Assembly (NCBI RefSeq): GCF_900099935.1
Contig: NZ_FNEK01000004.1
Span: forward strand, 1-64,000
Source of the DNA: Aliiruegeria lutimaris
GTDB taxonomy: Bacteria; Pseudomonadota; Alphaproteobacteria; Rhodobacterales; Rhodobacteraceae
DNA length: 64,000 nucleotides
Reading direction: 5' to 3'
Position numbers and translations under genes: made by a program. Position 1 is the first letter of the stretch. Each line of letters begins with the position of its first letter. A model generated the notes under the pieces. That model searched no databases, was not told where the DNA came from, and worked only from the letters and a program-made list of their open reading frames with translations. Below are positions 2,654-63,288 of this stretch, piece by piece.

Positions 2654-3592
2654 TTACGTTTCCCTTTCCCCAGCGTCCTCCGAGGGAGCGCTTCCTGTCA
2701 ATGCCTCTCGCACGAGGATCATTTCCCGGCGCATTCCGCCCACGAGCAGTTCCGCGAAAGCCGAGAGGCGCTGGACACGGGCATCATCGGCGTGCCGGAT
2801 AAGGTAGAAGCTGCGCGTGAGCGCGAAAGCCTCCGACAGGACGCGTTCGAGGATATGGTCGCCGGGCAGCGCGAAATCATGGGTTACGGCAACGCCGGCG
2901 CCCTGCCGTGCCATCTGGTATTGCACCGCAACCGAGTTGCTGGCGAGCACCGGGCGATCTGCGCCGAGGTCGTGGAAATACTCCAGTTCCTTGTCGAAGA
3001 TCATCTCGGGGATGTAGCCGATCAGCCGATGCGCCTTGAGATCTTCCAGCGTCTCGATCGGCGCGGTCGAGGCCAGGTAATCGCGCGCCGCCGCCAGCAC
3101 GAGCTGGTAATCGACGATCTTCTGCACCGTGAGCCGGCCGGCCTCGGGACGGCTGACGCCAATCGCCATGTCGGCCTCGCGCCGGTTGAGATTGAACAGC
3201 CGCGGCAGCGCCACGATCTGCACTTCCAACTCGGGATGGGTCGCCACGATCCGCGAGACGACCTTCGGCAGCAGGAAATTGGCGCAGCCATCGGGCGCCC
3301 CGATCCGTACCACGCCCGAGAGCCGGTCCCCCTGCCCGCGCACGGCATCCTCGGCATGGGCCATGGCCTGCTCGGCCTCCTGCGCGTGCGGCAGCAGCCG
3401 TTCGCCGGCCCCGGTCAAAGCGTATCCGTTGGAGGATTTCAGAAACAGTGCCGCGCCCAGCCCGTCTTCTAGTCGCGAAACCCGACGCCCGACCGTCGCC
3501 GGATCCAGTTTCAGCGCATTGCCCGCCGCCGACAGGCTTCCCTGCCGCGCCACAGCGAGGAACACGCGCAGATCGTCCCAACTTGCCGCCAT
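2654..3592 (-). CDS. LysR-family regulator, probably of the valine catabolic cluster
   Basis: A 312-residue LysR protein. The N-terminal winged HTH (residues 1-60: WDDLRVFLAVARQGSLSAAG) is followed by a substrate-binding domain. The ATG at 3592 has GGGAG just upstream and begins exactly at the HTH, so the longer frame to 3694 is not used. The gene is divergent from mmsA, with a 100-bp spacer that contains several TTGCA/TGCAA dyads; this is the classic layout of a LysR regulator controlling its neighbour. Control of mmsA is inferred from position, not shown. Confidence 0.85.
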   Translation of the reverse strand: MAASWDDLRVFLAVARQGSLSAAGNALKLDPATVGRRVSRLEDGLGAALFLKSSNGYALTGAGERLLPHAQEAEQAMAHAEDAVRGQGDRLSGVVRIGAPDGCANFLLPKVVSRIVATHPELEVQIVALPRLFNLNRREADMAIGVSRPEAGRLTVQKIVDYQLVLAAARDYLASTAPIETLEDLKAHRLIGYIPEMIFDKELEYFHDLGADRPVLASNSVAVQYQMARQGAGVAVTHDFALPGDHILERVLSEAFALTRSFYLIRHADDARVQRLSAFAELLVGGMRREMILVREALTGSAPSEDAGERET

Positions 3593-3602
3593 CTCCCGCC
3601 CC

Positions 3603-3658
3603 TTGCAAAAATGCAAAATGATTTTGGCAACCTGCCGCTTCTCACTGCATTTGCGCAA
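3603..3658. promoter_or_regulatory. Dyad-rich LysR/mmsA divergent control region
   Basis: The spacer holds a perfect dyad TTGCA-AAAA-TGCAA (3603-3616), an overlapping imperfect one TGCAAAAT-G-ATTTTGGCA (3612-3629), and the palindrome TTGCGCAA (3651-3658). LysR proteins usually bind T-N11-A dyads in such spacers. These are the most likely operators for the neighbouring regulator. This is inferred from symmetry and position. Confidence 0.5.
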
Positions 3659-3692
3659 GGGTATTCTGGCGCCAACAGTCAAGGAGGACCCC

Positions 3693-5192
3693 ATGGATCA
3701 AATCGGTCATTACATCAACGGCGCCCGCGTCTCCGGCGCGTCCGGCCGCACGGCGGATGTCTTCAACCCGGCCACCGGCGAAGTTCAGGCACAGGTCGCG
3801 CTGGCCTCGAAGGCCGAGGTCGACGCGATCGTCGCCAAGGCCGCGGCCGCCCAGCCCGCATGGGGAGCCACCAACCCGCAGCGCCGCGCCCGCGTGATGA
3901 TGAAGGTCGTGGACCTTCTCAACCGCGACATGGACAAGCTGGCCGAGGCGCTCTCGCGCGAGCATGGCAAGACCTTCCCCGATGCCAAGGGCGACGTGCA
4001 GCGTGGCCTGGAAGTGATCGAGTTCTGCATCGGCGCGCCGCATCTGCTCAAGGGCGAGTATACCGACGGCGCCGGCCCCGGCATCGACATGTATTCCATG
4101 CGCCAGCCGCTGGGCGTCGTGGCCGGCATCACGCCTTTCAACTTCCCCGCCATGATCCCGCTATGGAAAGCCGGCCCGGCGCTCGCCTCCGGCAACGCCT
4201 TCATCCTGAAGCCGTCGGAGCGTGACCCCTCCGTGCCGCTGATGCTGGCCGAGATATTCAAGGAAGCCGGTCTGCCTGACGGATGTTTCCAGGTCATCAA
4301 CGGCGACAAGGAAGCGGTGGACGCGATCCTCGACAACGAGACCGTCCAGGCCATCGGCTTCGTCGGCTCCACGCCGATCGCGCAATATATCTACAGCCGC
4401 GGCTGTGCCAACGGCAAGCGCGTGCAGTGCTTCGGCGGCGCCAAGAACCACATGATCGTCATGCCCGACGCGGACATGGAACAGGCCGCCGATGCGCTGG
4501 TGGGCGCGGGTTATGGAGCCGCGGGCGAGCGCTGCATGGCGATCTCCGTGGCTGTGCCGGTGGGCGACGAGACGGCGGACCGCCTGATCGCCGCGCTCAA
4601 GCCGCGCATCGAGTCGCTGAAAGTGGGCCCCTACACCGCCGGTGACGATGTCGATTTCGGTCCGCTGGTGACCGCCGCCGCCAAGGCGAACGTGCAGCGC
4701 CTGGTCCAGACAGGCATCGACCAGGGCGCCGAGCTTGTCATCGACGGGCGTGACTTCTCGCTGCAAGGCTACGAGGACGGCTTCTTTGTCGGCCCGCATC
4801 TCTTCGACCGCGTGACCGAGGACATGGACATCTACAAGACCGAGATCTTCGGCCCGGTCCTGTCCACCGTGCGCGCCGAGACCTACGAGGAGGCCATCGG
4901 GCTCGCCATGGACCACGAATATGGCAACGGCACCGCGATCTTCACCCGCGATGGCGACACCGCGCGCGACTTCGCCAGCCGGATCAATATCGGCATGGTC
5001 GGCATAAACGTTCCGATCCCGGTTCCGCTGGCCTACCACTCCTTCGGCGGCTGGAAGAAATCCGGCTTCGGCGACCTGAACCAGCACGGCACGGACGGGT
5101 TCAAGTTCTACACTCGCACCAAGACCGTTACCGCCCGCTGGCCCTCGGGCATCAAGGAAGGCGCGGCGCTGAACTTCAAGGCAATGGACTGA
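3693..5192 (+). CDS. mmsA: CoA-acylating methylmalonate-semialdehyde dehydrogenase
   Basis: The 499-residue aldehyde dehydrogenase converts (methyl)malonate semialdehyde to propionyl-CoA or acetyl-CoA with NAD, late in valine and myo-inositol breakdown. The MDQIGHYINGARV start, GITPFNFPAMIPLW and the catalytic cysteine at residue 281 in GERCMAIS (rather than GQxC) are typical of the MmsA subfamily. AAGGAGG sits 5 bases before the ATG at 3693. Downstream genes at 5510-8588 encode the other steps of the pathway. A terminator and a repeat separate it from them. Confidence 0.95.
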   Translation: MDQIGHYINGARVSGASGRTADVFNPATGEVQAQVALASKAEVDAIVAKAAAAQPAWGATNPQRRARVMMKVVDLLNRDMDKLAEALSREHGKTFPDAKGDVQRGLEVIEFCIGAPHLLKGEYTDGAGPGIDMYSMRQPLGVVAGITPFNFPAMIPLWKAGPALASGNAFILKPSERDPSVPLMLAEIFKEAGLPDGCFQVINGDKEAVDAILDNETVQAIGFVGSTPIAQYIYSRGCANGKRVQCFGGAKNHMIVMPDADMEQAADALVGAGYGAAGERCMAISVAVPVGDETADRLIAALKPRIESLKVGPYTAGDDVDFGPLVTAAAKANVQRLVQTGIDQGAELVIDGRDFSLQGYEDGFFVGPHLFDRVTEDMDIYKTEIFGPVLSTVRAETYEEAIGLAMDHEYGNGTAIFTRDGDTARDFASRINIGMVGINVPIPVPLAYHSFGGWKKSGFGDLNQHGTDGFKFYTRTKTVTARWPSGIKEGAALNFKAMD

Positions 5193-5218
5193 CCCGACCC
5201 GTCCCAAGGAAAACGAAT

Positions 5219-5250
5219 GACCCGGTCGATCTGGCCGGGTCTTCTCTTCT
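5219..5250 (+). terminator. Rho-independent terminator after mmsA
   Basis: GACCCGG and CCGGGTC (5219-5225 and 5235-5241) form a stem closed by a 9-base loop, followed at once by a pyrimidine run cTTCTCTTCT. It begins 27 bp after the mmsA stop and would separate mmsA from the acyl-CoA dehydrogenase operon. Confidence 0.65.
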
Positions 5251-5266
5251 GCCGGCGTCCCGAACA

Positions 5267-5389
5267 ATCCTGCGGATCGTGCCTCCGGCGGGGATATTTG
5301 TCGGAAAGATGATGGGGAGGCGCGCTTGCCCTTCTTCTGACGAAAAATATCCTGGGGGAGCGCTTGCCAGAGCGCGGGGGCAAAGCCCC
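5267..5389 (+). repeat. Dispersed palindromic intergenic element, copy 1
   Basis: A 123-bp element with a conserved head (ATCCTGCGGATCGTGCCTCC), then GGCGGGGATATTT and its mirrored arm AAATATCCTGGGG, ending in GCGCTTGCCAGAGCGC and GGGGGCAAAGCCCC hairpins. The same order of parts recurs at 8720, 28587, 34289 and, inverted, at 58959. It fills much of the 317-bp gap between mmsA and the acyl-CoA dehydrogenase gene. No gene is seen in this gap. Confidence 0.8.
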
Positions 5390-5509
5390 ATAACCTCGAA
5401 CTCCCCTGTCTCGGCAACAGGAATTCGAGGCATTTCCTCTTGCCAAATTCCCGGCGCATGTAGAAATTGAACGGATATTCAATTTCCAGCGGCTTTGGGG
5501 AGGAAGCTC

Positions 5510-6652
5510 ATGGATTTCGCGCTCACCGAGGAACAGGTGGCAATCTTCGACATGGCCCGCGCCTTTGGCGAAGAACATATCGCGCCCTATGCAGCAGACT
5601 GGGACAACGCGGGCACGATCCCGAAGGAGCTTTGGCCCAAACTGGCCGAACTGGGCTTCGGCGGGCTTTACGTGAGCGAGGATTCCGGTGGCTCCGGCCT
5701 AGGCCGACTGGATGCAACTCTGGTCTTCGAGGCGCTGTCGATGTCCTGCGCCTCCGTCGCGGCCTTCCTGTCGATCCACAACATGTGCGCGAAGATGCTC
5801 GACAGCTTCGGCTCAGATCCGCTCAAGGAACGCTTCCTGCCCGGCGCGCTCTCGATGGAGACAGTCTTTTCCTATTGCCTGACCGAACCCGGATCGGGAT
5901 CAGACGCCGCGGCGCTCAAGACGAAAGCCGAAGCCACGGCGAACGGCTACATGCTCACTGGCACTAAGGCCTTCATCTCCGGCGGCGGCTATTCGGACGC
6001 CTATATCGTCATGGCGCGCACCGGCGGCGACGGGGCGAAAGGCATCTCGGCACTGGTGATCGAGGACGGTGCGCAAGGGCTCTCATACGGTGGGCTCGAG
6101 GCCAAGATGGGCTGGAAAAGCCAGCCAACACGTCAAGTCCAGATGGATGGTGTCAATTTGCCCGCCGACAACCTGTTGGGCGAAGAAGGCAAGGGCTTTT
6201 CCTATGCCATGGCCGGGCTCGATGGCGGACGGCTCAATATCTCCGCCTGCTCTCTTGGCGCCGCCCAAGCCGCGCTTGACGCGACCTTGCAATATATGTC
6301 GGAGCGAAAGGCCTTCGGCCAGACGATCGACCAGTTCCAGGCGCTGCAATTCCGTCTCGCTGACATGGAGATCGAGCTTCAGGCCGCCCGCACCTTCCTG
6401 CGGCAGGCGGCGTGGAAACTCGACACCGGCGCGCCGGACGCCACCAAGTTCTGTGCCATGGCCAAGAAATTCGTGACCGAGGCCGGCAGCCGGGTGGCCG
6501 ATCAATGCCTGCAACTACATGGCGGCTACGGGTATCTTGCCGATTACGGCATCGAGAAGATTGTCCGCGATCTGCGCGTGCACCAGATCCTCGAGGGCAC
6601 CAACGAGATCATGCGCGTGATCGTCGCGCGACAGTTGATAGGCAACAGATGA
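5510..6652 (+). CDS. Acyl-CoA dehydrogenase, probably isobutyryl-CoA dehydrogenase
   Basis: The 380-residue flavoenzyme (MDFALTEEQ start) oxidises a short-chain acyl-CoA to the enoyl-CoA and passes electrons to ETF. It shows CLTEPGSGSDAA (about 128-139), LQLHGGYGYL and the C-terminal LEGTNEIMR segment that carries the family's catalytic-base region. GGGGAGGAAG precedes the ATG at 5510. Its stop overlaps the start of 3-hydroxyisobutyryl-CoA hydrolase (ATGA), and mmsB follows, so isobutyryl-CoA from valine is the likely substrate. Substrate choice is inferred from context. Confidence 0.85.
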   Translation: MDFALTEEQVAIFDMARAFGEEHIAPYAADWDNAGTIPKELWPKLAELGFGGLYVSEDSGGSGLGRLDATLVFEALSMSCASVAAFLSIHNMCAKMLDSFGSDPLKERFLPGALSMETVFSYCLTEPGSGSDAAALKTKAEATANGYMLTGTKAFISGGGYSDAYIVMARTGGDGAKGISALVIEDGAQGLSYGGLEAKMGWKSQPTRQVQMDGVNLPADNLLGEEGKGFSYAMAGLDGGRLNISACSLGAAQAALDATLQYMSERKAFGQTIDQFQALQFRLADMEIELQAARTFLRQAAWKLDTGAPDATKFCAMAKKFVTEAGSRVADQCLQLHGGYGYLADYGIEKIVRDLRVHQILEGTNEIMRVIVARQLIGNR

Positions 6653-7716
6653 GCGATATCTCCATTCGCAAACAAGGCCGGACGGGGCGCATCACCCTCA
6701 CCCGGCCCAAGGCGCTCAACGCACTCACCTATAAGATGTGCCTCGCCATCGACGCGGCACTGAAAGACTGGGCCGAGGATGACACGGTCGCGATGATCCT
6801 GCTCGATGCAGAGGGCGAGAAGGCGTTCTGCGCGGGTGGCGATATTGCCGAGATGTATGCCACCGGCATGGCGGGCAACTACGCCTATGGCCGCCGGTTC
6901 TGGCAGGACGAATACCGGATGAACGCGCGGCTCTTTGAGTTTCCGAAACCCGTGGCCTCCTTCCTGCAGGGCTTCACCATGGGCGGCGGCGTCGGCATTG
7001 GCTGCCACGGCTCGCATCGCGTTGTCTGCGAGAGCAGCCGCATCTCCATGCCCGAATGCGGTATCGGGCTGATCCCGGATGTCGGTGGTTCATTGATCCT
7101 TGGCCGCGCGCCGGGACGGCTCGGGGAATATCTCGGCACGACAGGCACGCGCATGGGGCCGGCAGATGCGATCCTTGCCGGTTTCGCCGATTATTTCATT
7201 CCTGCCGCAAAATGGCCGAAGCTGATCGCAGCGCTGGAAGAAGCGGGCGACTGGACCCTGATCGATGCCGCTGCCGAAACGTCTCCCGCCGGCAATCTGA
7301 CCGCGTTGCACGACGAGATCGACACCCATTTCGCAGGCGAAACTCTGGGCGACATCCTGCGCTCGCTGCGCCACGCGCACGGCGATTTCGCCCGGGAAAC
7401 GCTGGCGGTGCTGGAGCGGAACTCGCCGCTGGCCATGGCCTGCACGGTCGAGATGGCCCACAGGCTGAACACGGACTCGACGATCCGGCAGGCGCTCGGG
7501 ATGGAATACCGCTTCACGCACCGCGCCATGGAGCATTCCGATTTCCTTGAAGGCATCCGCGCCGCCATCATCGACAAGGATCGAAACCCGAAATGGCGCC
7601 ATGCGCTTGACGAAGTGAACAGCGTCATGGTGAGCCAGATGCTGCTACCGCTCGGCGACGAGGCACTCACATTCGACGACGAACAGGACGAACTGGCGGG
7701 GGAGGACATGCCATGA
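6649..7716 (+). CDS. 3-hydroxyisobutyryl-CoA hydrolase-type enoyl-CoA hydratase family protein
   Basis: A 355-residue crotonase-fold enzyme. CAGGDIAEMY (about 63-72), MGGGVGIGCHGSHRVV and ESSRISMPECGIGLIPDVGGS match the long HIBCH subgroup (about 350 residues) rather than short enoyl-CoA hydratases (about 260). It would release 3-hydroxyisobutyrate from its CoA ester, which feeds the next gene product, MmsB. Start and stop overlap both neighbours by 4 bp (ATGA), showing tight translational coupling. Confidence 0.87.
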   Translation: MSDISIRKQGRTGRITLTRPKALNALTYKMCLAIDAALKDWAEDDTVAMILLDAEGEKAFCAGGDIAEMYATGMAGNYAYGRRFWQDEYRMNARLFEFPKPVASFLQGFTMGGGVGIGCHGSHRVVCESSRISMPECGIGLIPDVGGSLILGRAPGRLGEYLGTTGTRMGPADAILAGFADYFIPAAKWPKLIAALEEAGDWTLIDAAAETSPAGNLTALHDEIDTHFAGETLGDILRSLRHAHGDFARETLAVLERNSPLAMACTVEMAHRLNTDSTIRQALGMEYRFTHRAMEHSDFLEGIRAAIIDKDRNPKWRHALDEVNSVMVSQMLLPLGDEALTFDDEQDELAGEDMP

Positions 7717-57867: not shown

Positions 57868-58944
57868 ATGAACGGCGTTCTGCCAAGCCAGTCCATCACG
57901 CGGATGATCGCCGAGGGCGCCATTGCCGCCGACCAGCCCTTTGCCAGGGGACAGGTGCAGCCAGCGAGCCTCGATCTGCGGCTGGGCAGCGCCGCCTACC
58001 GGGTGCGGGCGTCCTTCCTTGCCGGAGACGGTCGCTCTGTGCGCGACAAGCTCGGCGAATTCGAGATGCACCGGATCGACCTCTCCGAGGGCGCTGTGCT
58101 GGAAAAGAACTGCGTCTATGTCGTGCCACTGCAGGAACGGCTCGCGCTTCCCGCTGGCATCAACGCGGTGGCGAATGCCAAATCCTCAACTGGCCGGCTG
58201 GACTTGCTGACTCGCGTCATCACCGATGGCGGAACCGAGTTCGACCGCATCGGCAGCGGCTACACTGGACCGCTCTATGCCGAGATCTGCCCACGTTCCT
58301 TCTCGGTGCTGGTGCGCCCGGGCATGCGCCTGAACCAGGTCCGTTTCAGGCAAGGCAAGGTCGAGCTGGACGACGCCACGCTGCGCGCCCTGCATGACGA
58401 GGTCGGGCTGGTCTCCGGCGAAGCGACGATCTCCGAAGGGCTCGCCTTCTCGGTCGACCTTCAACCGCAAGATGACCGCCTCGTCGGCTGGCGCGCCAAG
58501 CCCCATGCCGGGGTGATCGACCTCGACAAGATCGGCCATTACGCCCCGCGCGACTTCTGGGAACGGGTAGAAACCGAGGATGGCCGCATCATCCTCGACC
58601 CCGGTGCCTTCTATATCCTCGTCAGCCGCGAGGCCGTGCATATCCCGCCCGATTACGCTGCCGAAATGGCCCCTTACCTCGCAATGGTCGGCGAGTTCCG
58701 CGTCCACTATGCCGGCTTCTTCGATCCGGGCTTCGGCCACGCCCCGGCGGGCGGATCCGGCGCCCGCGGCGTTCTGGAAGTGCGCTGCCACGAAGCTCCA
58801 TTTGCGCTCGAACACGGGCAGGTTGTCGGCCGGTTGGTATATGAACGCATGGCCGAACGCCCCGAAGCACTCTATGGCGAGGGCATTGCCTCGAATTACC
58901 AGGGCCAGGGACTGAAGCTCTCCAAGCATTTCCGCGCGCCTTAG
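57868..58944 (+). CDS. dcd: Double-length dCTP deaminase
   Basis: A 358-residue protein, about twice the length of E. coli Dcd (193). The N-terminal half shows QPASLDLRLGS and STGRLDLLTRVITDGGTEFD, and the C-terminal half repeats the trimeric dUTPase-like fold (AFYILVSREAVHIPPDYAAEM, VHYAGFFDPGFG). It deaminates dCTP toward dUMP synthesis. AGGGAGG lies just before the ATG at 57868; a GTG two codons earlier is less likely. Such tandem forms are normal in alphaproteobacteria. Confidence 0.9.
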   Translation: MNGVLPSQSITRMIAEGAIAADQPFARGQVQPASLDLRLGSAAYRVRASFLAGDGRSVRDKLGEFEMHRIDLSEGAVLEKNCVYVVPLQERLALPAGINAVANAKSSTGRLDLLTRVITDGGTEFDRIGSGYTGPLYAEICPRSFSVLVRPGMRLNQVRFRQGKVELDDATLRALHDEVGLVSGEATISEGLAFSVDLQPQDDRLVGWRAKPHAGVIDLDKIGHYAPRDFWERVETEDGRIILDPGAFYILVSREAVHIPPDYAAEMAPYLAMVGEFRVHYAGFFDPGFGHAPAGGSGARGVLEVRCHEAPFALEHGQVVGRLVYERMAERPEALYGEGIASNYQGQGLKLSKHFRAP

Positions 58945-59100: not shown

Positions 59101-59130
59101 GAAAAAAGCGCCCCGATCTCCCGGGGCGCT
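59101..59130 (-). terminator. Rho-independent terminator of the cytochrome operon
   Basis: AGCGCCCCG (59107-59115) and CGGGGCGCT (59122-59130) pair over 9 bp. On the minus strand the stem is followed by TTTTTTC. It lies 25 bp beyond the stop of the cytochrome b gene. Confidence 0.85.
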
Positions 59131-59154
59131 CTGTTCTTACCTGGCTGCGTGCCG

Positions 59155-59817
59155 TTATTCGGCCGGCTTGATCCGGTGCGGTTCATCCGCTTCCAGATAG
59201 GCCTCTTCCTCCGGCGACAGGACGATATCGTCGTAGCCGGTAAACATCGGCCGTACATGCTTCCAGATCGAATGCCCGGTCGTCATCAGGTAGAGATGCA
59301 TGACGATGAAGGACAGGATCCCGAAGGCCGCCAGCACATGCAGGTTGCCCACGATCTCGATCCAGAAGCCCGAACCGGCGGCCGGCTCCCACAGGCGATA
59401 GGTCAGGTAGGCGATGCCAGTGATCCAGATCGTCGGGAAGATCGCCAGCTTCAACGCCAGGTAGGCCATCGCCTGCAGCGGGTTGTGCTTGCGCCAATAG
59501 GCCTTCCGATAGGGGTGCTTTTCGCCCTTGAAGATGCCGTAGCTGTAGAAGCGCATGACCTGGAACAACCCGTTCGACGTGGGCATATAGTGTTTCCACG
59601 TGCCCGTCGTGAAGTGCCAGAAGATCGCGAAGATCCAGAGCAGCATCAGCAGCAAAGCGGCATAGGTGTGCACCAGAACCGCCTGGTCATAGGGGATCCA
59701 CTCATGGATGCCGTAGAGCCGGAAGCCGGTAAAGGTCATCACGATCACCAGCAACACCTGTCCCCAGTGCCAGAAGCGTTCGAACGGCGGATAGATCTTG
59801 ACGAGACGTTCAGCCAT
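59155..59817 (-). CDS. Membrane cytochrome b partner of the octaheme cytochrome
   Basis: A 220-residue protein of the cytochrome b/b6 or formate dehydrogenase gamma type. Four helices (about 16-36, 43-66, 115-140, 150-172) carry candidate haem histidines (ERFWHWGQ, LVHTYAALL, FWHFTTG, NLHVLAAF, FIVMHLYLM). It would pass quinol electrons to, or accept them from, the octaheme protein encoded just upstream. The start is 1 bp after that gene's stop, with AAGGAG at a good distance. The C-terminus is soluble. Confidence 0.88.
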   Translation of the reverse strand: MAERLVKIYPPFERFWHWGQVLLVIVMTFTGFRLYGIHEWIPYDQAVLVHTYAALLLMLLWIFAIFWHFTTGTWKHYMPTSNGLFQVMRFYSYGIFKGEKHPYRKAYWRKHNPLQAMAYLALKLAIFPTIWITGIAYLTYRLWEPAAGSGFWIEIVGNLHVLAAFGILSFIVMHLYLMTTGHSIWKHVRPMFTGYDDIVLSPEEEAYLEADEPHRIKPAE

Positions 59818-59818
59818 C

Positions 59819-61462
59819 TCACTGCTCCTTCATGTTCTTGCGGCCGAAGAAACGCATGATCGCATGGATCACGACTCCACCCAGTGTCAGCAACAGGATC
59901 AGCGCGCCCAGCTTGCCTCCCGGTCCCATCGGGTTGGCGCCCGGGATATGGATGCCGGCGATATTGGCCAGTCGTCCGTTCTCCTTGTGGCATTCCTCGC
60001 ACTGCACGGCGTCCTTGGACGGGGCCACCATGTGGGTGATCGGCCAGTACATCTCGGTGGACACGAAGTCGTAGCTACCCGAATATTCGGTGCCCGACGC
60101 CGCCGCGCCCGCCTCGAAGGCCTTGTCCCAATCCCATTTGCCCCAATAGGCCGTGTCTGACCCCGGTCCGAACAGGTGCGGATAGAGCAGACGGTTGCGC
60201 TCGGTGTCATAGGGCTGCTTGCCTCGCATCACCTTGAACGGCCAGATCCGGCTCTTTTCATCGTCCTGGCTGCCCGAGATCATGTTGACCTCGACCACGC
60301 CGCTCGGATCGATTTCGCGCTCGGCATTGGCGTACTCCACCTGACCGTCGAACCAGAAATACTCCGGTTGCAGGTCCTCGCCCCATTGGAAGTCGCCTTT
60401 CATGGAGTCATAGGTGGGCTTCTTCTTGCCACCAGCCGTCTCGTATCCCGCGACCTTGAACGGCTTGCCTTCGTCGTTCTTCTTGCCGGCCGTCGACCAG
60501 TCCCAGACGGTCTTGGTCGGCACGCCGCCCTTGGCATATTCGGGAATATGGCAGGTCTGGCAGGCGATCTTGTCACGGTGCGAGTTCAGCTTGAAGCCGA
60601 TCAGCGTCAGGCTGTCATGCGGCTCGGTGTCGTGGCAGCTCTCGCAAGTGGCAACGTCATGGCGCTGGCCCGGGAGCGGTGCGCCCGCGGTATCCTTGGC
60701 CGTCACGTTGTAGCGCGAGCCATGCCACTGGTGCTTGTCGGAGACGTGGCACTCGTTGCAGGTGAAGTTCAGCCCGTCAGAGGCCATGTGAATGTCGACA
60801 TCCTCGGTCGGATTGTGCATCGCCGAAGACAGGTCGCCATGTTTCACGTTGTCGCCGCCGCCGCCATAGAAGTGGCAGTTGCCGCAATTGTCGCGGTCGG
60901 GCTGACCGACGCTTTGCGCGACCTTCATCAGGTCCACCGGCTGCGCCGGCGTGCCCATGTTTGTCTTCGCGCCTTCCTTGATTTCCTTGCCGAAGGGCTT
61001 GCCTGCGCCCGCGGGGATCTTGGCATAGGTGTCCGTCTTGTCGTGGCAGACAAGGCAGTCAACCGCGGTTTCCGAAGCGGGAGGCGGCTGGTTCATGTCG
61101 TCCCAGCCGTAACCGACATGGCACGAGGTACAGCGTGGCTCGTTGGCGGCGACCGCAACGCAATAGGAGTTGACCACGTTGTTCTTGCCGAGATCCTGAC
61201 CGGTTTCGGGATGCTCGTAATCCCATGACCAGTGGATCGATTCCTTGACCTGTGCGGCTGCCTCCGTATGGCAGCTCAGGCAGGCGGCGGTCACTTCTGG
61301 CCCTGTCGCGAAATCCTTTTGCAGGGCTTCGAGTTTCGAGTGATCTACCGTGCTGCCGGAGCTGTCTCCGGGCGGTGCCGTGGTTTCTTGTGCTAAGGCG
61401 GCTCCGGCCCCTGCCAAGGCAAGGGTCAGGCCGACAGCGAACAGCGAGTGTTTGGAAATCAT
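59819..61462 (-). CDS. Octaheme c-type cytochrome (tetrathionate-reductase family)
   Basis: A 547-residue periplasmic protein with a signal peptide (ALAGAGAALAQ, about 12-28). It has eight CXXCH motifs: CLSCH, CTSCH, CLVCH, CGNCH, CNECH, CESCH, CQTCH and CEECH. The C-terminus has one membrane helix (GALILLLTLGGVVIHAIM) and a basic end, so it is anchored. It resembles Shewanella octaheme tetrathionate reductase (OTR), which can reduce tetrathionate, nitrite or hydroxylamine in vitro. The ATG at 61462 starts the signal peptide. It forms an operon with the cytochrome b gene. Confidence 0.9.
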   Translation of the reverse strand: MISKHSLFAVGLTLALAGAGAALAQETTAPPGDSSGSTVDHSKLEALQKDFATGPEVTAACLSCHTEAAAQVKESIHWSWDYEHPETGQDLGKNNVVNSYCVAVAANEPRCTSCHVGYGWDDMNQPPPASETAVDCLVCHDKTDTYAKIPAGAGKPFGKEIKEGAKTNMGTPAQPVDLMKVAQSVGQPDRDNCGNCHFYGGGGDNVKHGDLSSAMHNPTEDVDIHMASDGLNFTCNECHVSDKHQWHGSRYNVTAKDTAGAPLPGQRHDVATCESCHDTEPHDSLTLIGFKLNSHRDKIACQTCHIPEYAKGGVPTKTVWDWSTAGKKNDEGKPFKVAGYETAGGKKKPTYDSMKGDFQWGEDLQPEYFWFDGQVEYANAEREIDPSGVVEVNMISGSQDDEKSRIWPFKVMRGKQPYDTERNRLLYPHLFGPGSDTAYWGKWDWDKAFEAGAAASGTEYSGSYDFVSTEMYWPITHMVAPSKDAVQCEECHKENGRLANIAGIHIPGANPMGPGGKLGALILLLTLGGVVIHAIMRFFGRKNMKEQ

Positions 61463-62013
61463 GCAGATATCCCTTCCATCTTCAGATGCTGCAACGGTCC
61501 TGATGGGCCTCATGCAACGCCTATTCCGGTGGGAGATCCATGATTCATGACAGTTTTCGAATATATCGATATGTTGACAGTTTCAAAAATATATTTTTTC
61601 AAGATGCCTTTTACGTAAGCGGAAATTCTTTCTTTACATACAAACACTGAGTAAGACTTATATGCAGTATTTTCAATATATCTAATCGGGCAAACATGCG
61701 CTGATCTACCGCAGTGTGCGTTTTCGATTTTTCCAAGTCTGAAGGCGACTTGACCGGCATTCTCTCCTTGCACCGACCGCGGGAAAAGGGCGCTTCCAGG
61801 GTGTCGAAAAACAGCATCAAACTGTTACGGTACCGGGTCGACGCGACAATCAATCCCTTGGGGTTTTGGCCAGCCTCGAAACGAACCATCGCGGCGTTCC
61901 GCTTTTAAGGGATCGCGCATCCACACGCACAGGGGCCGGAACAGCGCCCACGCGGTCGTGAGGCAAGTTTGGAGCGGCGTCAGAAACGCCGGATGCCTGG
62001 CACGAAACGCGGC
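61463..62013. other. AT-rich gene-free spacer between the octaheme operon and the LamB-type gene
   Basis: 551 bp. The part from 61540 to 61690 is much richer in A and T than the rest of the window and holds the palindromes ATATCGATAT (61563-61572) and AAAAATATATTTTT (61585-61598). It lies upstream of the octaheme gene and probably carries its promoter. Frames of 64 and 92 codons on opposite strands (61714-61908 and 61611-61889) are antisense to each other and have no ribosome site; I do not call them genes, but a worn mobile-element remnant is possible. Confidence 0.5.

Positions 62014-63288
<1,275 letters not shown>

Follow-up and report, generated by a model that had tools for sequence, protein, structure and literature searches.

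A membrane-anchored octaheme tetrathionate reductase family protein and its cytochrome b partner in Aliiruegeria lutimaris

The structure of the octaheme tetrathionate reductase (OTR) of Shewanella oneidensis (1SP3), published in 2004, reportedly assigns active-site roles to Cys64, Asp150 and Lys153, the last of these being the ligand of the catalytic heme. The Shewanella enzyme interacts with the soluble tetraheme cytochrome STC, and its reduction of nitrite and hydroxylamine is cited in the same report (PMC4484225; this and the following papers are drawn on for the passages concerned with the points given). BOGUAY_2386 of the orange Guaymas Beggiatoaceae is described as a protein of 582 aa for which helices are predicted at the N- and C-termini, its gene being followed by one for a cytochrome b of the thiosulfate reductase type; assayed with an artificial donor in place of quinol, two preparations reduced tetrathionate at 93 and 22 µmol/min/mg, and the rate with nitrite was 1.3 µmol/min/mg. 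Its closest kin include Sedimenticola (PMC6449678). For a cluster of Otr and cytochrome b561 in Ignavibacteriae Ch128a, electron supply from quinone has been proposed (PMC7509429). In sediment microcosms, the otr transcript was 36-fold up with tetrathionate at day 8 (1.8-fold at day 1, not significant), and the tetrathionate/thiosulfate couple is placed at +198 mV (PMC8528874). Genomic context varies: in Caldithrix, otr lies near a hydrogenase, and growth tests gave no support to respiration of sulfur, polysulfide or thiosulfate despite otr, tetrathionate not being named in the passage concerned (PMC5317091); in lucinid symbionts, otr adjoins soxY and occurs with soxY/soxZ (PMC11237559). Occurrence or classification of OTR is treated in PMC9040765, PMC8359478, PMC12774639, PMC10734462, PMC10376724 and PMC7096707. 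Methylophaga thiooxydans was dropped as a source of physiology, its genome being without OTR (PMC6548844, in the part cited).

We analysed a stretch of 64,000 nucleotides from Aliiruegeria lutimaris (the window), in which an octaheme protein and a cytochrome b are encoded by two adjoining genes with the following features.

61540-61553, minus strand: degenerate sequence where relatives have an FNR-type box (aligned by eye)
59819-61462, minus strand: octaheme c-type cytochrome of the OTR family, 547 aa, anchored (TIGR04315, 1SP3, eight CXXCH)
61388-61462, minus strand: probable signal peptide, residues about 1-25 (sequence by eye and model)
61160-61162, minus strand: Cys101 (Cys64 of 1SP3), active-site residue by alignment
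60851-60853, minus strand: Asp204 (Asp150 of 1SP3), active-site residue by alignment
60842-60844, minus strand: Lys207 (Lys153 of 1SP3), by alignment the lysine that ligates the catalytic heme
59831-59923, minus strand: C-terminal membrane anchor helix, residues 514-544 (AlphaFold2 helix)
59155-59817, minus strand: cytochrome b, di-heme PF01292 type, 220 aa (PF01292, E=2.3e-23)
59105-59132, minus strand: intrinsic terminator-like hairpin closing the operon (12 pairs, 8 GC, T tail)

At its longest, the octaheme open reading frame covers 59819-61513. The start at 61513 was discarded in favour of 61462, because a ribosome-binding-like stretch (GGAAGGGA, found by eye) precedes the latter and a proper signal peptide begins there; the AlphaFold2 model shows a helix over residues 5-20 and low confidence over 20-35, and the cleavage point is putative. 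The cytochrome b gene starts one base past the octaheme stop codon, and its ribosome-binding-like AAGGAG lies within the end of the octaheme gene. A preliminary description of this DNA had noted a strong terminator and no other redox genes beside the pair. Both observations stand: the hairpin (59132-59105) closes the operon, scoring on the plus strand too, where a gene ending at 58944, which from its sequence we take to be dcd, converges on it; and no redox gene was found adjoining the pair at this locus, the upstream neighbour being a LamB porin (62014-63279) 500 bases from the octaheme reading frame. The porin was excluded from the module because, among loci L027-L106, only L027 (Aliiruegeria) carries LamB in the fetched flanks (blastp, 1e-4).

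The octaheme protein is a member of the OTR family with the fold of 1SP3, as had been proposed. It matches TIGR04315 at E=1.6e-181 (604 bits against a curated cut-off of 375) and 1SP3 at E=4.2e-114 by phmmer, it is 44% identical to the Shewanella oneidensis enzyme, and with its AlphaFold2 model (mean pLDDT 81.6) Foldseek returns 1sp3 at E=3.9e-47 and a TM-score of 0.86 by target length. The family matches of both genes lie far past chance. All eight heme motifs, at residues 61, 111, 136, 193, 235, 273, 301 and 488 of the 547-aa form, are CXXCH; the active-site motif of octaheme nitrite reductase (ONR) is CXXCK. Like the Shewanella protein, the window protein has eight hemes and keeps the counterparts of Cys64, Asp150 and Lys153; from this correspondence we take Cys101 and Asp204 to be active-site residues and Lys207 to be the catalytic heme ligand, so that the non-standard ligand which the preliminary description had suggested looking for is present as a lysine. 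In the alignment, with three fragments of a broken OTR copy (L003, L005, L006) left out of the octaheme count, Cys101 is kept in 121/121 anchored rows (114 distinct) and 6/6 soluble rows, Asp204 in 118/121 and 5/6, and Lys207 in 121/121 and 6/6 as well as in all seven rows of a nine-heme paralog. Unlike the Shewanella enzyme, which is soluble and without an anchor helix, the window protein has both an anchor and an adjacent cytochrome b.

The anchor that had been predicted for the C-terminus is seen in hydropathy and as the AlphaFold2 helix 514-544. Within this helix, His533 (59864-59866) and Arg537 are invariant in the 121 anchored rows (114 distinct) and in 7/7 nine-heme rows, and are represented by a gap in 6/6 soluble rows. 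The cytochrome b scores 83.3 bits against PF01292 (gathering threshold 30.1, E=2.3e-23) and 100.7 bits against the thiosulfate reductase cytochrome b PhsC (NF011582), under the equivalog cut-off of 204. Of the four helices previously assigned to it, three are detected by hydropathy at the cut-off used, and a fourth is expected because of the PF01292 family and the histidine pattern. His17, His50, His160 and His174 are present in 122/122 rows (114 distinct; the window is counted twice, and ten broken or duplicate rows were left out beforehand). A profile of the cytochrome b matches HyaC (4gd3) at E=1.4e-4, and the four histidines align with His18, His57, His155 and His169 of FdnI and with HyaC; in FdnI, these four histidines pair as b-heme ligands. 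The window pair thus resembles E. coli FdnHI and HyaAC in having a di-heme cytochrome b with the same four-histidine pattern and a partner whose C-terminal helix carries a histidine (seen by eye in FdnH and HyaA), although the likeness of the anchor helices is judged by eye only and the catalytic part of FdnHI and HyaAC is unrelated to the octaheme protein. In a hydrogenase, the anchor histidine matters for the quinone reaction; our search of the hydrogenase anchor-histidine literature found nothing useful on this point.

The genome of A. lutimaris (G000) contains further OTR-like genes. A second operon (L156, contig C121: 6377-8011, 8106-9872 and 9889-10491) encodes a pentaheme cytochrome, an OTR paralog with nine hemes and a cytochrome b. 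In the paralog the lysine is kept, but both the active-site cysteine (leucine in 7/7 rows) and the aspartate (7/7) are lost; this type, which forms a long branch, is confined among the loci read to the window's genus. Contig C125 (L157, about 4865-6225) carries a third copy of OTR and cytochrome b, which is broken by internal stops and deletions. Its nearest counterpart is L018 of a congener, where the copy is intact (69% identity over 251 residues versus 56% to the window). The pentaheme partner has relatives in five further genomes of Rhodobacteraceae (L171-L175), and the loci of about 4 kb around them show neither a multiheme nor a cytochrome b neighbour.

The distribution of the pair was read from two sets: the 80 relatives most similar to the window protein, out of 282 found in named genomes, and an evenly drawn set of 398 genomes of Pseudomonadota. 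Of the named relatives, those of Aliiruegeria sabulilitoris (90% identity) and Tropicimonas (79-87%) are nearest, in agreement with the marine roseobacter origin suggested earlier. A cytochrome b coding sequence adjoins the octaheme gene in all 80 best relatives (split into two reading frames in L074 and L095), and the C-terminal helix is present in every one. The Pseudomonadota sample contains 67 genomes with any OTR match, 45 of them above the cut-off; in 29 loci taken from its better-scoring places (L107-L135), 25 have the cytochrome b partner. The anchor helix passes the hydropathy cut-off in 23 of these 25 and is visible in the alignment in the two that were missed (L109, L122). The remaining four (L113, L115, L121, L126) are soluble and lack both the cytochrome b, as far as the fetched loci reach, and, in the alignment, the anchor helix; three of them (L113, L115, L126) are close kin of the Shewanella enzyme. 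Of 198 sampled Rhodobacteraceae genomes, 13 have an OTR match (12 above the cut-off), counting that of the window; in a sample of close relatives the figure is 12 of 60 genomes, eight of these in the window's genus. Among the genomes sampled, the otr-cytochrome b pair is therefore the common form, and the view that an anchored two-gene form is unusual is not supported.

Published counterparts lead to the same point. BOGUAY_2386, as described, is likewise an octaheme OTR with predicted terminal helices and a cytochrome b downstream; it differs in that thiosulfate reductase genes follow and in its gammaproteobacterial origin, the two being likened by description and not by direct sequence comparison (PMC6449678). 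An OTR of Sedimenticola (L045) is 57% identical to that of the window and belongs to a pair of the same kind. The Ch128a cluster shares the two-gene arrangement and the proposal of a quinone-linked membrane enzyme, and differs in belonging to another phylum; the passages concerned report no activity for it (PMC7509429). The unrecognised role that had been considered for the pair is not supported: the arrangement is already in print (PMC7509429), and an anchored relative followed by a cytochrome b gene reduced tetrathionate and, more slowly, nitrite (PMC6449678). It had been asked whether the protein falls in a clade of known biochemistry whose members share the operon: this largely holds, since the pair is common and a relative has been assayed, with the qualification that BOGUAY_2386 is absent from our tree.

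That tree (77 rows, maximum likelihood in quick mode, SH-aLRT support) comprises TIGR04315 members and 1SP3 only. The soluble forms and 1SP3 form one clade (SH-aLRT 99), outside which the window protein falls. With midpoint rooting and no outgroup, the soluble clade is nested in the anchored forms, beside L153 (91) and then L108/L114 (86). This topology suggests that the soluble OTR was derived from an anchored one, a view helped by the more distant relatives L166 and L167, which also adjoin a cytochrome b; it is kept at the level of a suggestion by the root without outgroup and by the long branches of L142 and L153, whose placement is unsure.

Genomic neighbours were surveyed for clues to function. 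Genes of the sulfur-transport family PF04143, which we take to carry thiosulfate, occur at five of 20 loci hand-picked from the Pseudomonadota sample (L139, L142, L147, L148, L150) in fetched stretches of 16 kb (6 kb for L154) with copy counts merged by hand, where 0.16 were expected (P about 8e-7); L142 and L150 have soluble OTRs. A weak YeeE-like match at L141 was dropped, Pfam finding no YeeE family there. In the flanks of up to 6 kb that surround the module, phmmer with four queries found sulfur-transport genes in 0/80 of the nearest relatives. The scan for neighbour families used 109 of 132 listed neighbour genes, 23 having been dropped by hand, mostly because they overlapped the module; no OTR was called in 12 of the 80 loci, which contributed no neighbour. 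Of the 134 families, the 25 that occur most often include neither a recurrent functional neighbour nor a nitrogen-metabolism family; the commonest were DUF882, glutamine amidotransferase and aminotransferases, and these neighbours look like house-keeping synteny. SoxB exceeds its cut-off in 12 of the 13 Rhodobacteraceae genomes with OTR, one of which (G536) has a partial match at a contig end, versus 115 of the 185 others (Fisher p=0.022, kinship ignored). Three further observations concern gene context. The window's genome carries soxB and, about 5 kb from it, a PF04143 gene (contig C52, 6091-13953). At L144, L146 and L151, DUF3373 (PF11853) proteins directly adjoin soluble Shewanella-type OTR genes. 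Beside the soluble OTR of L150 lie a multiheme-cytochrome b fusion and two sulfur-transport genes (5142-7397, 4627-5145, 3352-4617), one of the latter fused to a rhodanese domain, so that the cytochrome b partner reappears there in fused form.

Upstream of the octaheme gene, the FNR consensus palindrome TTGAT-N4-ATCAA (PMC5398030) occurs without a mismatch in 10 of 79 loci; allowing one mismatch raises the count to 26, and allowing two raises it to 44. These loci are related, and the counts are not independent events. Stretches upstream of other genes, which were placed somewhat differently and end at the called start, gave 2, 11 and 90 of 517, block shuffles gave 0.01, 0.68 and 8.4, and four decoy palindromes gave 0 to 1 at up to one mismatch. 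The boxes in relatives argue for use under low oxygen. In the window, the aligned sequence at 61540-61553 has four mismatches, and the best match within 400 bases before the start has three, as in L027, so that FNR control in A. lutimaris is only putative. The related palindrome TTGAC-N4-GTCAA is enriched as well (15/81 at up to one mismatch, control 0.8); with this and the degenerate window box, the regulator of otr is not pinned down. Before the octaheme start, an AT-rich block (61554-61610) is partly conserved across seven Tropicimonas-group loci.

We read the pair, with a probability of roughly 60%, as a membrane-bound quinol:tetrathionate reductase that serves as an electron sink at low oxygen and for which nitrite and hydroxylamine are likely side substrates. 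The quinol link, raised as a possibility before, agrees with the quinone-type cytochrome b partner. The cytochrome b would oxidise quinol through two b hemes, probably ligated by His17/His174 and His50/His160, and electrons would pass the octaheme anchor helix with its invariant His533 to the eight periplasmic c hemes. The last heme of this chain would be heme 2, with its lysine ligand and with Cys101 and Asp204 next to it; there tetrathionate would be split to give two thiosulfates. In this roseobacter, which carries the sox gene soxB, the reaction could provide an alternative electron sink under low oxygen, and nitrite and hydroxylamine may be side or alternative substrates.

Three other explanations were weighed. 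A quinol-linked, ammonia-forming nitrite/hydroxylamine reductase for nitrogen-oxide respiration or detoxification is unlikely: such a role would accord with the reported reduction of both compounds by Shewanella OTR (cited in PMC4484225) and of nitrite by BOGUAY_2386 (PMC6449678), and boxes of FNR/Dnr type fit nitrogen-oxide control too, but BOGUAY_2386 was about 17- to 73-fold faster on tetrathionate, in different preparations (PMC6449678), the recurrent neighbours that we did find are sulfur-transport genes, lucinid symbionts have soxY/soxZ beside otr (PMC11237559), and the 25 commonest of the 134 flank families include none of nitrogen metabolism. We consider it distinctly improbable that the pair runs in reverse in this soxB-positive organism, as a thiosulfate:quinone oxidoreductase making tetrathionate. 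No sequence feature fixes the direction of the reaction; ubiquinone, at about +0.1 V, lies below the tetrathionate/thiosulfate couple (+198 mV), and reduction of quinone by thiosulfate would therefore be uphill. The soxB gene of the window's genome would suit the oxidative direction, TsdA enzymes run both ways (PMC6879331), and anaerobic thiosulfate oxidation by roseobacters has been reported, in passages that do not mention otr (PMC10090131), but the FNR-type boxes, like the activity measured for relatives, speak for reduction. That the protein belongs with hydroxylamine oxidoreductase (HAO) or the Thioalkalivibrio-type ONR instead of OTR is very improbable and was discarded, for although an eight-heme architecture is common to these groups (PMC6449678), TIGR04315 is the best family and passes its cut-off, no HAO or NrfA family matches at E up to 0.1, the sole nitrite-reductase model to match is NrfH at 20 bits (cut-off 134), none of the eight CXXCH motifs is replaced by CXXCK, and 1SP3 is the sole structure match below E=0.001.

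Our literature search, mostly outside subscription journals, found no report on the Rhodobacteraceae pair, on the anchor-helix histidine or on FNR control of otr, and in the literature consulted we likewise did not meet the invariant anchor histidine and arginine, FNR-type boxes before otr in many relatives, sulfur-transport genes beside some distant OTR relatives or the nine-heme paralog. A wider scheme can be drawn for the complex, which we think unlikely: the anchored otr-cytochrome b complex would be the original and main form of the family, constructed like formate dehydrogenase-N or hydrogenase 1, and His533 would either help to ligate heme b or contribute to the quinone site. In roseobacters with sox genes, the complex would act on the quinone pool as an oxygen-regulated, reversible valve between tetrathionate and thiosulfate, while the soluble enzyme of Shewanella, the basis of much of the biochemistry, would be a derived offshoot.

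The module itself is ordinary and represents a known kind of system, not a new one. Its analysis corrects the picture of OTR as a soluble Shewanella enzyme. Concrete points for testing are the invariant histidine of the anchor, the boxes of FNR type and the nine-heme paralog, which lacks the active-site cysteine; since the anchored pair is the common form in the genomes sampled, studies of OTR physiology should use the membrane complex.
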